Positions 43,742 to 53,753 of a stretch of 64,000 nucleotides of DNA are shown piece after piece. This DNA comes from an uncultured Acidimicrobiales bacterium (GTDB lineage: Bacteria; Actinomycetota; Acidimicrobiia; Acidimicrobiales; SZUA-35), in the NCBI GenBank assembly GCA_938021675.1, contig CALIFY010000022.1:1-64000 (forward strand). The letters run 5' to 3'. The translations under genes and the position numbers were made by a program. The stretch's first letter is position 1; the number at the start of each line of letters is the position of its first letter. The notes beneath the pieces were generated by a model. The model made no database searches and was not told the DNA's origin. It saw only the letters and a program-made list of their open reading frames with translations.

Positions 43742-43747
43742 TATGAT
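43742..43747 (+). promoter_or_regulatory. Probable -10 box TATGAT of a leaderless transcript
   Basis: TATGAT ends 6 bp before the ATG at 43754. With a normal distance of 6-7 nt from -10 to transcription start, the mRNA would begin at or next to the ATG. No ribosome-binding site fits in between. Leaderless mRNAs are common in Actinomycetota. The -35 is weak (TTGCGC at 43716-43721, 20-nt spacing). Confidence 0.5.
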
Positions 43748-43753
43748 TTCGTT

Positions 43754-44056
43754 ATGGAAATCGCAGCCAGCGACGAGGCACTGGACATCATCCGTTCCAA
43801 AGGCGGGACGGCCGCCATCGACTACATCGGCGCCATTGGTTGAGGCGGCGTTGAAGAGGTGTCGGTCGACACCTACCTCAAAGGGAAGAACACCTCGTCG
43901 TACAAACGCATCCAGCACGACGACGTCACCCTCCTGGTGGCGCACAAGCTCATGCAGTACGCCAGCCGACTTGAGTTGGTCACCCGAAAGAAGCTGCTCG
44001 GCTCGAAGTTGACGGCGGTGGCTCACCACCAACACACCGCGGCCTGCCGTCACTAA
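43754..44056 (+). CDS. Putative selenoprotein with in-frame UGA, HesB/IscA-like
   Basis: A 100-codon frame is interrupted only by TGA at 43841-43843 (residue 30, context GAIG-U-GGVEEVSVD). Coding character continues across it: 22 of 29 codons before and 60 of 70 after end in G or C. Residues before it (SDEALDIIRSKGGTAAIDYI) and after it (VDTYLKGK, LLVAHKLMQYASRLEL, KKLLGSKLTAVAHHQHTAACRH) read as one small domain. A stem-loop at 43857-43874 has SECIS geometry. The best reading is selenocysteine at 30. The resemblance to HesB/IscA-like small proteins with Cys or Sec at this place is my inference. The His/Cys C-terminus could bind metal. Without Sec machinery only a 29-residue peptide would be made, and the locus would then be a pseudogene. 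Confidence 0.6.
43857..43874 (+). promoter_or_regulatory. Candidate bacterial SECIS stem-loop
   Basis: AGGTGTC-GGTC-GACACCT forms a perfect 7-bp stem with apical loop GGUC. The stem starts 13 nt, and the loop 20 nt, after the UGA. Bacterial SECIS elements lie within the coding region just after the UGA and have a small apical loop with conserved G; the E. coli fdhF loop also presents GGUC. All bases also encode conserved-looking protein, as expected for a bacterial SECIS. Confidence 0.6.
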
Positions 44057-44128: not shown

Positions 44129-45463
44129 ATGGAGACGGTGACCGATAGCGACGCCCGACCTGGCAACCGACGGGAGATCTTCGGGTGGAAGATGTACGAC
44201 TGGGCGTGGTCGGCATTCACCACGACCGTCACCACCGCGCTGCTCGGACCGTACCTGTTGGCCCTGGCCGAAGACGATGGCGGAGTCCCGCTGCTGGGGT
44301 TGACCATAGCGCCGGCCTCATTCTTCCCCTTCGCCGTCAGCGCATCGGCTATCGCCCAGATCGTTGTGTTGCCGGTGGTCGGTGCGATCGCCGATCACAC
44401 ACCCCACAAGAAGCGGCTGCTGCTGCTCTTGGCCTATGCGTCGAGCGCCTGTACCGCGGCAATGTTTGTCATAACCGGAACGACGTTGTTGCTGGGTGGA
44501 CTTCTGTTCGTGCTGGCCTCGATCGGCTTTGGCGCAGCCGGAGTGGTCTACAACTCCTACCTCCCCGAGATAGCGCCACCCGAACTTCGGGACCGGGTCA
44601 GTTCCGGAGGCTTCGCCTACGGGTACCTCGGTGGTGGCTTGTGGTTGGCCGCCAACTTCGGGTTCATCGCGCTGCTCGACGACACCGAGTTGGCGGTGCG
44701 AATAAGTCTTGGAGGAACCGGACTGTGGGCAGGAGGGTTTATCGCTCTGACCACACATCGGTATCTCAATGCCCGCCCCGCTGGTCGAACCCGTACGCCC
44801 GGATACGGGTGGGTTCGCTTCAGCCTGCGGTCCATTCTGATAACGCTTCGAGACATGCGCCGCCGTCACCCGATCACCCTCCGGTTCTTGCTGGCCTACC
44901 TTGTCTTTAACGATGGCATTCTGACCGTGATCGCCATCGCCACCTCCTTCGCGGCCGATGAACTCGACGCCGAATCCGAAACCCTCCTCCTTTTAGTTCT
45001 GCTAATCCAATTTGTCGCCATCCCTGGGGCGATCGGCTTCGGTCGCCTTGGCGAACGATTCGGATCGAAACGGAGCCTAATTTGGAACTTGGTGGTGTGG
45101 GCTGGACTAGTAATCTACGCCTACCTCGAACTCGACTCGATCGGCGAACTGTGGATCATGGGCACGGTGCTGGCATTCGTCCTCGGTGGGTCGCAAGCCA
45201 TCAGCCGCTCGCTGTACTCCCAAATGATCCCCTCGTCAGCCGAGGCCGAGTACTTCGGGTTCTACGAGATCGCTTCTCGGGGCACCTCGTGGATCGGCCC
45301 ACTGGCGTTCGGCGTCGTCAACCAAATCACCGGATCTCAACGTCAGGCCATCCTGTCCTTGATCGTCTTTTTCGTTCTCGGTCTGGCGCTGCTGATCCCG
45401 ATCGACGTGGCGAAAGCAATGACCGATGCCGGTAACGACCCGAAGAGGATCAGACAGTCATAG
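44129..45463 (+). CDS. UMF1-family MFS transporter
   Basis: This 444-residue permease has about twelve TM helices and the UMF1/Atg22-like N-terminus REIFGWKMYDWAWSAFTTTV. An MFS signature-like loop is GAIADHTPHKKRLLL, with a central cytoplasmic loop (about 190-225). NSYLPEIAPPELRDRVSSGGFAYGYLGGG is strongly characteristic of the family, as is GFYEIASRGTSWIGP. UMF1 proteins are uncharacterised bacterial relatives of the vacuolar amino-acid effluxer Atg22, so small-molecule efflux is plausible. Confidence 0.88.
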   Translation: METVTDSDARPGNRREIFGWKMYDWAWSAFTTTVTTALLGPYLLALAEDDGGVPLLGLTIAPASFFPFAVSASAIAQIVVLPVVGAIADHTPHKKRLLLLLAYASSACTAAMFVITGTTLLLGGLLFVLASIGFGAAGVVYNSYLPEIAPPELRDRVSSGGFAYGYLGGGLWLAANFGFIALLDDTELAVRISLGGTGLWAGGFIALTTHRYLNARPAGRTRTPGYGWVRFSLRSILITLRDMRRRHPITLRFLLAYLVFNDGILTVIAIATSFAADELDAESETLLLLVLLIQFVAIPGAIGFGRLGERFGSKRSLIWNLVVWAGLVIYAYLELDSIGELWIMGTVLAFVLGGSQAISRSLYSQMIPSSAEAEYFGFYEIASRGTSWIGPLAFGVVNQITGSQRQAILSLIVFFVLGLALLIPIDVAKAMTDAGNDPKRIRQS

Positions 45464-51466: not shown

Positions 51467-53753
51467 TGGCCAAGGCCACCCCTCGACCCTTGACCACCCG
51501 GCCGATGACCTTTGTCGGTTCGGGAATGGCTTGCTGGGCTCGATCGAGCTGATCGGGGGCGACGATGGCCACCATCCCTATCCCCAAGTTGAGCGTCTGG
51601 TGAGCTTCGACCCGATGAAGTCCGGCCAAGCCGACCAGGAATCGGAACAGCGGCGGCCACGTCCAAGACGAGGTCTCCACGATGGCACCGCATCCTTCGG
51701 GAAGCACCCGGGGGATGTTTTCGACCAAGCCACCACCGGTGATATGGACCAACCCGGAGATGAGATCATCGGCCAGTGCCTGCTTGAGAGGCTGAAGGTA
51801 ACTGCGGTGGACGGCCAGTAACGCTTGACCGATCGAAACGTCTTCGTCGCCGGGCAACGGATCGTGTAGATCCATCCCGGACAAGACCTTGCGGGCCAGT
51901 GAATAGCCGTTGGTATGAAGACCTGACGATGCCAGGCCGACCAGGAGGTCGCCGGGTGCGATCGAGGTTCGCGGCAGCAGGTTGGCCCGATCTACCGCTC
52001 CGATCATCGTGCCGGAGACGTCCACCGCTCCGGTCGACAACACATCGGGCATCTCGGCTGTTTCGCCACCGATCAGGACACACCCTGCAGCGCGGCACGC
52101 CTCGGCCATACCGCCAACGATTCGTGCCACGACGGTGGCATCGAGTGAGGCGGCGGCAACCGTGTCGAGAAAGAACAGTGGGGATGCCCCTTGGACCAAC
52201 ACGTCATTGACACCGTGGTTGACGATGTCGGCGCCAATTCCTTCCCAGCTGTCGATCTGCTCGGCCAGGATGGTCTTCGTCCCGACCCCATCGGTGGTAG
52301 CTACCAGCAGCGGATCGTCGAGACCGGAAAGTGAAGCCAAATCGAAGACCCCACCGAAACTTCCGTGACCGGCGACTACTCGCTCGTCATGGGTGCTGAT
52401 AACCGCGCCGGCGATCCGATCGCCCACCTCGGCCGCGGCGTCGAGAGACACACCGGCCTGGGCGTAGGCCGTAGCGGCCGAGCCGGTGACCGATCGTGGG
52501 GCGTGCCGCCATCCGATGTCGGACCGGGCAAAAAGCTGGTCACTTCTCATCTCATCGACGACCGAATAGACGTTGTCCAGCGCCGCAGCCAGATCGGTTC
52601 CGGTGCCAACCACGTTCAGCACGCGTCCACCACAGCTCACCACCTGGTCCCCGTCGACCCGGGTCGAGCTGTGAATCACCGAGACACCGGCCGGGGCATG
52701 AATCTCGGGAATCGGGATTGCCATCGCCGGACTGGTCGGATAACCGGCGGCGGCGACCACTACCGTCGCGGCCGTTACCCCATCGACGATCTTGACGTCG
52801 GTCTTTGCCAGGTTTCCGTCAGCCGCGGCCAACACGAGTTCGAGTACATCGGAGTCGAGCAACGGAAGAATAACTTGGGCTTCGGGATCACCGAACCGGC
52901 AGTTGTATTCGATGAGTCGAGGCCCTGAATCGGTCAACATGATGCCGGCATAGAGCACACCGACGTACGGCGTTCCCTCGGCCGCCATGCCCGATACCGC
53001 AGCTCGCAGGAACCGCTCGACCAACTCGGGTTCGATGTCCGCCTTGCCCGGCACGGGGGAAAATGCGCCCATGCCGCCGGTATTGGGCCCGGTGTCGCCA
53101 TCGCCGACCCGTTTGTGATCTTGGGCCGTTCCGAGGGAGATGACGTCTGCGCCGTCGGCGATCCCGAACAGTGAGAGTTCTTCGCCCTCTAGCCGTTCCT
53201 CAAGGACGACGGTTGCACCAGCGTCACCCATGGTCCGTGCACTGAGAAGATCGAAGATCGCCCGTTCGGCTTCCACCCGGGTTTCCGGAATGATTACGCC
53301 TTTTCCTCCGGCCAGACCATCGGCTTTGACGACGACTCGACCATCGAAATCGTGAAGCCACTTGAGAGCAGACTCCACCGAGGTAAACGACTCACAACGA
53401 GGTCCGGGGATGCCATGTCTGGCGGCGAACTCTCTAGCAAAGGACTTTGAACCCTCGAGCTGAGCGGCCGCCGCCGACGGTCCGAAGCATCGAATTCCGG
53501 CCTCGGAAAGCGAATCGGCCAACCCGCTCACCAACGGCTGCTCCGGTCCGACGACCACCAAATCGATCGACCGGTCGACGCAAAACGACGCTATGGCCTC
53601 GAAGTCGGTCACATCGATATCGACGTTATGAGCGATCGTGCCGGCATTGCCGGGGGCGACGTTGAGTTCGCCCAACCGGGGGGACGTTGATAAGGCCGTG
53701 GTGATGGCGTGCTCTCGCCCACCCGACCCGATGACCAGCACGTTTACCTTCAC
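51459..53753 (-). CDS. purDM: PurD-PurM fusion: GAR synthetase and AIR synthetase
   Basis: This 764-residue bifunctional enzyme has an ATP-grasp PurD in residues 1 to about 425 (LVIGSGGREHAI, FARIGIPGPR-type loop, VVKADGLAGGKGVI, NTGGMGAFSP, YNCRFGDPEAQVILP). PurM follows from about 430 (ATAYAQAGVSLDAAAEVGDRI, LVATTDGVGTK, GADIVNHGVNDVLVQGASPLFFLD, GGETAEMP, HITGGGLVENIPRVLP). PurD makes GAR and PurM makes AIR, two non-consecutive steps. Eukaryotes fuse both with PurN, and here purN is the next gene, overlapping by 8 bp. The GTG start overlaps the purF stop (GTGA). Confidence 0.94.
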   Translation of the reverse strand: MKVNVLVIGSGGREHAITTALSTSPRLGELNVAPGNAGTIAHNVDIDVTDFEAIASFCVDRSIDLVVVGPEQPLVSGLADSLSEAGIRCFGPSAAAAQLEGSKSFAREFAARHGIPGPRCESFTSVESALKWLHDFDGRVVVKADGLAGGKGVIIPETRVEAERAIFDLLSARTMGDAGATVVLEERLEGEELSLFGIADGADVISLGTAQDHKRVGDGDTGPNTGGMGAFSPVPGKADIEPELVERFLRAAVSGMAAEGTPYVGVLYAGIMLTDSGPRLIEYNCRFGDPEAQVILPLLDSDVLELVLAAADGNLAKTDVKIVDGVTAATVVVAAAGYPTSPAMAIPIPEIHAPAGVSVIHSSTRVDGDQVVSCGGRVLNVVGTGTDLAAALDNVYSVVDEMRSDQLFARSDIGWRHAPRSVTGSAATAYAQAGVSLDAAAEVGDRIAGAVISTHDERVVAGHGSFGGVFDLASLSGLDDPLLVATTDGVGTKTILAEQIDSWEGIGADIVNHGVNDVLVQGASPLFFLDTVAAASLDATVVARIVGGMAEACRAAGCVLIGGETAEMPDVLSTGAVDVSGTMIGAVDRANLLPRTSIAPGDLLVGLASSGLHTNGYSLARKVLSGMDLHDPLPGDEDVSIGQALLAVHRSYLQPLKQALADDLISGLVHITGGGLVENIPRVLPEGCGAIVETSSWTWPPLFRFLVGLAGLHRVEAHQTLNLGIGMVAIVAPDQLDRAQQAIPEPTKVIGRVVKGRGVALASG

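Follow-up and report, generated by a model that had tools for sequence, protein, structure and literature searches.

A small selenoprotein gene with a predicted IscA/SufA-like fold in an uncultured Acidimicrobiales bacterium, and relatives that appear to contain a second selenocysteine

A 2026 review counts 119 selenoprotein families (PMC13188914), and two that it describes are close to the gene presented here. One is the HesB-like selenoprotein (TIGR01911), which has a UxGP motif and one selenocysteine (Sec) and is listed there as experimentally verified (PMC13188914). This family is an old one, with 11 representatives in PMC1794560 and 90 in PMC5029168, and its function is described as unclear in Methanococcus maripaludis (PMC11097638). 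The other is the Moorella-type 'CC/Se motif family (seleno)protein', NF041239, which has the motif CxxU and also one Sec (PMC13188914). We saw no row for a HesB/IscA-type or NF041239-type protein with two Sec residues in the review. The gene described here is of a known kind; the main surprise is a two-Sec variant in other lineages, of which we found no description in the accessible text of the open-licence literature on HesB/IscA-like, NF041239, Moorella and Acidimicrobiia selenoproteins.

The window, i.e., the whole stretch of DNA that was analyzed, consists of the first 64,000 nucleotides of contig CALIFY010000022.1 from an uncultured Acidimicrobiales bacterium (assembly GCA_938021675.1). 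On its forward strand, positions 43754-44056 form a frame of 100 codons followed by a TAA, which is open except for one in-frame TGA at codon 30 (43841-43843). Third positions are rich in G and C on both sides of this TGA (22/29 upstream and 60/70 downstream). With the standard code, the only ORF in the same frame is a 65-residue fragment (43859-44056). The initial annotation had reported the interrupted frame, the base composition and the fragment expected from ordinary annotation, and all three were reproduced when the frame was re-read and the positions recounted. It had also proposed that Sec is inserted at codon 30, and this proposal is supported by the Sec machinery and the homologs described below. 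In our judgment, 43754-44056 is very probably a functional bacterial selenoprotein gene, in which the UGA of codon 30 is decoded as Sec (Sec30).

The initial annotation had suggested a search of the genome for sel genes, and selA, selB, selC and selD were all found, each over its cut-off, in the genome to which the window belongs (4,448,334 bases in 99 contigs, completeness 95.26 and contamination 2.51). The selA (402.9 bits) and selB (266 bits) genes adjoin on contig 28, which also has the tRNA-Sec gene (67.3 bits; ARAGORN reads the anticodon as tca). The model RF01852 by itself is unspecific, as it has matches in 14 of 14 control genomes and exceeds the cut-off in five of them. Presumably, SelB and tRNA-Sec decode the UGA of codon 30 in the mRNA as Sec. 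The selD gene scores 373.2 bits. Within the window there is also a weak match to the SelD profile (25.2 bits) at 51939-52217 on the reverse strand; it lies in a 772-aa open frame that might encode an ATP-binding enzyme related to SelD, for instance PurL. The genome's selD (L010:1501-2418 on the reverse strand, contig C65) is itself a selenoprotein gene with an in-frame TGA in the sequence GAGUGCK, which agrees with the SelD motif UxxK (PMC13188914).

A first scan of genome contigs found 26 loci related to the window gene. By their record titles, 15 are from Acidimicrobiia, Acidimicrobiales or Acidimicrobiaceae, 10 from Chloroflexota and one from Acidobacteria. Judged by its nearest relatives, the window would come from an Acidimicrobiia-type actinomycete. 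Codon 30 is TGA in all 27 genes (the window gene plus the 26), and it was TGA in 43 of 43 after the set had been enlarged. The final set has 51 members, including the window gene; 47 have TGA and four (L081, L083, L085 and L086) have Cys, and no other residue was found at this position among the homologs examined. These homologs, which the initial annotation had asked for, fit what is expected of a bacterial selenoprotein gene, i.e., an in-frame UGA that aligns with Cys or UGA. Second copies (L047, L056-L059, L062, L063, L065, L066, L074, L075, L079, L080 and L082) were removed from the set, and near-identical rows such as L048/L050, L043/L044 and L033/L034 were kept in the counts. L035 was left out of alignment A3 and L045, which has a one-codon insertion, was left out of the DNA alignments A2 and A4. 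The tail and codon counts given below exclude the later members L076-L078 and L084, which all have Cys tails, and also the four Cys30 forms.

The family is sparsely distributed. Profile searches, whose matches overlap, hit nine of the 198 genomes of the window's class, 12 of the 396 genomes of its phylum and 16 of the 294 genomes of the class of L036, a Chloroflexota record. No relative was found in the plasmids searched, and viral contigs, searched with one pattern, gave no confirmed relative. SelB is over its cut-off in 25 of the 26 genomes that carry the first-scan loci, and in the 26th there is a match of 223.9 bits in a 206-codon frame. Within the window's class, SelB is over the cut-off in 96 of 198 genomes; it is present in all nine family-positive genomes, compared with 87 of the 189 others (Fisher p = 0.0012, with kinship ignored).

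The four Cys30 forms cluster in a phylogenetic tree with a support of 93/84, and the Sec form L076 joins them with a support of 93/91. The tree is poorly resolved (17 of its 48 inner branches are starred and long branches are flagged). A C-terminal Sec, which is described below, needs five changes on the tree and a C-terminal Cys needs four. The tree is unrooted and so sets no direction for these changes.

A SECIS-type hairpin follows codon 30 at 43857-43874 on the forward strand. The stem-loop (AGGTGTC-GGTC-GACACCT) starts 13 nt past the TGA and has a 7-bp stem and a GGUC apical loop (43864-43867), exactly as the initial annotation had described it. Bacterial SECIS elements are expected just past the UGA with G or GU in the apical loop, and this is what is found here; the loop is GGUA in L069. 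For the window hairpin, taken as a single sequence, the folding energy does not reach significance (z -1.0 to -1.3), and so the case for it rests on the comparison across loci. An Rfam search gave a single match, which has an E-value of 0.42, is far under the gathering score and lies off the hairpin.

The comparison indicates that the codons over the hairpin are frozen in the Sec forms, where 98-100% of the loci use one codon. Among 43 Sec loci, codon homozygosity is 0.95 for GTG, 1.00 for TCG and 0.95 each for GTC, GAC and ACC, compared with 0.28-0.77 for 17 other conserved columns in the same loci (p 0.008 for the two groups of columns). For each of the five hairpin codons, none of 2000 simulations based on the family's codon use elsewhere gave an equally high value. 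The Glu and Leu codons that flank the hairpin are also constrained (homozygosity 1.00 and 0.74, again 0/2000 simulations), and a Tyr codon that lies between these constrained codons is free (0.58). Two columns outside the hairpin reach p-values of 0.0035 and 0.0155 in the same simulation.

L071 carries a GTA and a GAT that no other locus of the set has; they occur together and restore the pairing, as a compensatory change from G-C to A-U. In the pair count over 41 distinct rows, one pair of six has such a two-sided change, a result that is matched by 26 of 500 shuffles; pair 22-29 is unpaired in four rows and pair 18-33 in two. When the alignment of the hairpin is slid by +3, the covariation score is 0.071, above the 0.024 of the true register. 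RNAalifold, applied to the initial 26 rows, detected neither a two-sided change nor covariation, and it omitted the two innermost pairs. The hairpin core is identical to that of the window at 14-16 of 16 positions in the 43 Sec forms and at 11-13 of 16 in the four Cys forms. In the latter, the residues over the hairpin change from VSVDT to AAIDT, VAIDT or IAFDT. Judged by these sequences, the hairpin is degraded in the Cys30 forms. Presumably the hairpin 13 nt downstream guides the insertion of Sec at codon 30, as this comparison suggests.

Two other explanations for the UGA of codon 30 were considered. If it were a real stop codon or a sequencing error, either the gene would be a pseudogene or its product would be just the 65-residue fragment. 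This agrees with the fragment being the only ORF that the standard code lists in the frame and with the unremarkable energy of the hairpin by itself. However, residues are conserved on both sides of the TGA, synonymous sites are frozen over the hairpin, and the same TGA is present at 46 other loci, with Cys in four more. This recurrence, which answers the concern in the initial annotation that a base error had created the codon, excludes a sequencing error in practice, and we give the explanation hardly any weight. Readthrough of UGA occurs in bacteria, and the codon might be read as something other than Sec, either by tryptophan recoding or by plain readthrough. But the UGA is replaced by Cys in four forms and never by Trp, the genome has the sel genes, and the hairpin that follows the codon is degraded where Cys has taken its place, so this reading is just as improbable as the previous one. 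Sequencing error, pseudogene and tryptophan recoding were thus rejected on the recurrent TGA, the Cys replacements, the sel genes and the hairpin, and decoding as Sec is the reading that we adopt for codon 30.

The C terminus of the window protein is Cys98-Arg-His100 (44045-44053, forward strand). The initial annotation had noted a His/Cys C terminus, which is correct for the window gene; the UGA that relatives have at the Cys position, the tie to NF041239 and the degraded hairpin of the Cys forms were beyond what it could see. Among 43 loci, the tail has Cys in 19, TGA at the same place in 18, and is unclassifiable in six (L035, L045 and L052-L055). Seventeen of the 19 Cys tails read C-X-H and two, L033 and L034, read C-X-I. 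In 17 of the 18 TGA tails, a His codon follows two codons later, as it does in most Cys forms; the exception is L069. The motif is not universal, since L035 lacks a Cys/Sec tail and, in L033/L034, Ile takes the place of His. In a distant branch (L052-L055), the last residues are Cys-Cys, Cys-Cys-Thr or Cys-X-X-Cys, and the TGA after them is either a stop or Sec. In L041, the sequence past codon 98 reads Cys-Ala-His-TGA twice in tandem, and the second copy is beyond the stop.

Taken as sequences, these tails suggest that the C-terminal Cys position appears to be a second Sec in other lineages (18 of the 37 classifiable members). The window gene is a one-Sec form because its own tail has Cys98. 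The best hairpin past the tail TGA has GU in its loop in 18 of 18 members, versus three of 18 Cys controls (Fisher 1.5e-7); the control consisted of 18 of the 19 Cys loci (L030 is too short), included the Cys-X-Ile loci L033/L034, was designed after the tails had been seen by eye and is not corrected for relatedness. The loops begin 21-30 nt from the first base of the tail TGA, and the hairpins lie mostly beyond the next stop codon. Their median shuffle z is -1.5, versus -0.2 in the Cys controls (Mann-Whitney p 0.0007). Some of the single values are weak (L042 -0.79, L043 0.35, L044 0.72, L046 -0.32, L049 -0.69 and L070 -0.71), the stem of L042 has one mismatch, and long stems without GU in the loop also occur in the Cys controls L022, L028 and L039. 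The second Sec of the relatives would be inserted via a second SECIS, mostly located past the stop codon.

The first reading had also called the protein HesB/IscA-like. This is supported by the predicted fold and, weakly, by a profile alignment, but the Pfam model for Fe-S_biosyn (PF01521) did not match the window gene, although a genome-wide search with it matched two other genes, and TIGR01911, whose presence in the model library is unconfirmed, was unlisted for the window gene (E <= 1) and for 27 members (E <= 0.1). The AlphaFold model based on A1, the alignment of 27 members, has a pLDDT of 87.2 and a pTM of 0.78, and residues 91-100 are its weakest part (pLDDT 65). The top Foldseek matches are IscA, SufA and HI1723, with E-values from 1.9e-3 (IscA) to 2.9e-3 and a probability of 1.00; none is under 1e-3 with the predicted model. 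VIA-align gave SufA a Z of 8.5 (rmsd 2.9 over 85 residues) and DsrR and IscA a Z of 7.9, followed by Fe-S-biosynthesis-type entries down to Z 4.9 and then DNA polymerases at 2.1. The program cautions that a Z of 7-8 may reflect a common arrangement; here the gap to the unrelated rows is large. A search of PDB sequences with A3 gave nothing at E <= 10. We predict from the model that the window protein folds like an A-type Fe-S carrier (IscA/SufA).

The genome also encodes two canonical A-type carriers with the pattern Cys...CGCG, L072 (C28:12205-12507) and L073 (C1:111701-112003), and some 1.5 kb separate L072 from the selA match. Since the genome has these two ordinary carriers, the housekeeping role probably does not fall to the window gene. 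When A3 was aligned to them with hhalign, residue 30 fell on their first conserved Cys; the alignment is weak (probability 11%, E 0.0026), covers 85 columns (residues 3-90) and ends before the tail. The likeness to the A-type carriers IscA, SufA and ErpA (PF01521) thus consists of the predicted fold and of residue 30 at the first conserved Cys. The three cysteines of IscA bind the cluster. The window protein does not have the three Cys residues of an A-type carrier (Cys and Cys-X-Cys) but Sec30 and (Cys/Sec)98-X-His100, and where the two canonical carriers end in Cys-Gly-Cys-Gly, the tail of the window family is (Cys/Sec)-X-His. Sec30 would replace the first conserved Cys and, by position only, (Cys/Sec)98-X-His100 may stand for the Cys-X-Cys of the carriers. 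From the fold and the hhalign result, we infer that these residues could correspond to the three cluster ligands of IscA.

The family to which the gene belongs can be stated more closely. The best family for the window gene is NF041239 (29.3 bits, E 6.5e-7, residues 1-71), at an E-value that argues for common ancestry and a score below the cut-off of 40 bits. Each of the 27 A1 members also matched this model (E <= 0.1). When proteins were scored singly (31 of the 51), 28 of 30 relatives matched at E <= 0.001 with 21.6-41.8 bits; three of them (L033 with 40.9 bits, L034 with 40.7 and L040 with 41.8) passed the cut-off, 25 matched below it, and L041 and L055 had no match at that threshold. L040 is a two-UGA member. 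In the 294 genomes of L036's class, the NF041239 model found two matches, neither over the cut-off, compared with 16 for the A1 profile. Because 28 of 30 relatives match and three pass, we place the set within the NF041239 family, as a divergent wing, and do not regard it as a family apart.

This wing differs in several ways from the described families. Compared with NF041239 as it is described in the review table (PMC13188914), the first site of the window protein is U-G-G with no nearby Cys, the tail of the set is mostly (C/U)-X-H, and many members have two UGA codons. The protein resembles the HesB-like selenoprotein as a small selenoprotein distantly related to IscA, but its motif is UGG and not UxGP. 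Since the window motif is GUGG, NF049953 ('hypothetical protein DG', 172 positions), to which the review table assigns GUxG, was another candidate. It was unlisted for 27 members at E <= 0.1 and rejected; a search of the window's own genome with this model also gave no match, which is uninformative alone because the controls were silent as well.

Upstream of the gene, a -10-like box (TATGAT, 43742-43747, forward strand) lies 6 nt before the ATG, at the leaderless distance that the initial annotation had noted. A TANNNT at this distance is present in nine of 16 loci (the window and L021-L035), with 1.1 expected from shuffles, and in seven of the remaining 27 loci, with 1.8 expected; each start was placed 29 codons ahead of the TGA, where some loci have no start codon. 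A scan for two-hexamer sigma-70 sites found none. We found no conserved operon partner across 27 loci, many of which are cut by contig ends. The most widespread neighbor cluster (proteins of at least 110 aa) occurs in six of the 27 loci and is kilobases away. A gene that by appearance encodes a membrane transporter (44129-45463, forward strand) follows the window gene, and similar genes follow L023, L024 and L029 (four of 27 loci).

The second UGA of the relatives might be an ordinary stop, so that the family would have one Sec only. The position of the hairpins mostly past the next stop, the six weak shuffle values, the mismatch in L042 and the missing His in L069 would fit this explanation. 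But 17 of 18 members have X-His after the UGA, just like the Cys-X-His of the Cys forms, and the contrast in GU loops with the Cys controls speaks against a plain stop. We consider an ordinary second stop improbable and prefer a second Sec. The protein might also be a selenol redox enzyme, which would reduce a substrate by means of a selenenylsulfide or diselenide between Sec30 and Cys/Sec98. Cys and Sec exchange at both positions, as is usual for redox sites, and most uncharacterized selenoproteins probably have redox functions (PMC13188914). Against this, the predicted fold is carrier-like, residue 30 falls where a cluster ligand would be, and the His-rich tail suggests a set of ligands. A redox role is our second choice, quite possible but somewhat short of an even chance.

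Our first choice, to which we would give roughly an even chance, is the binding of a soft metal or an Fe-S cluster by Sec30, Cys/Sec98 and the His-rich tail, a role that we infer from the predicted fold and the positions of these residues. The more complete proposal is a carrier with an A-type fold that binds the metal or Fe-S cluster through selenocysteines, namely Sec30 plus, in certain lineages, a C-terminal Sec whose SECIS is mostly beyond the stop. This proposal is tentative, and we hold it with less confidence than metal or cluster binding as such.

In conclusion, such genes are hidden from standard ORF calling by their UGA, and the nearest family model, at its cut-off, would pass over most members checked. 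Together the members form a natural series in which one small fold would have no, one or two Sec residues at its two sites, and in which the hairpins are kept or degraded to match. Cys30 homologs are few in the set (four of the 51 members compared). The series lets one ask what an IscA-type site gains from selenium. It also poses the question of how a bacterial SECIS may work when, as in most of the putative two-Sec members, Sec is third from the end and the hairpin is mostly outside of the coding region.
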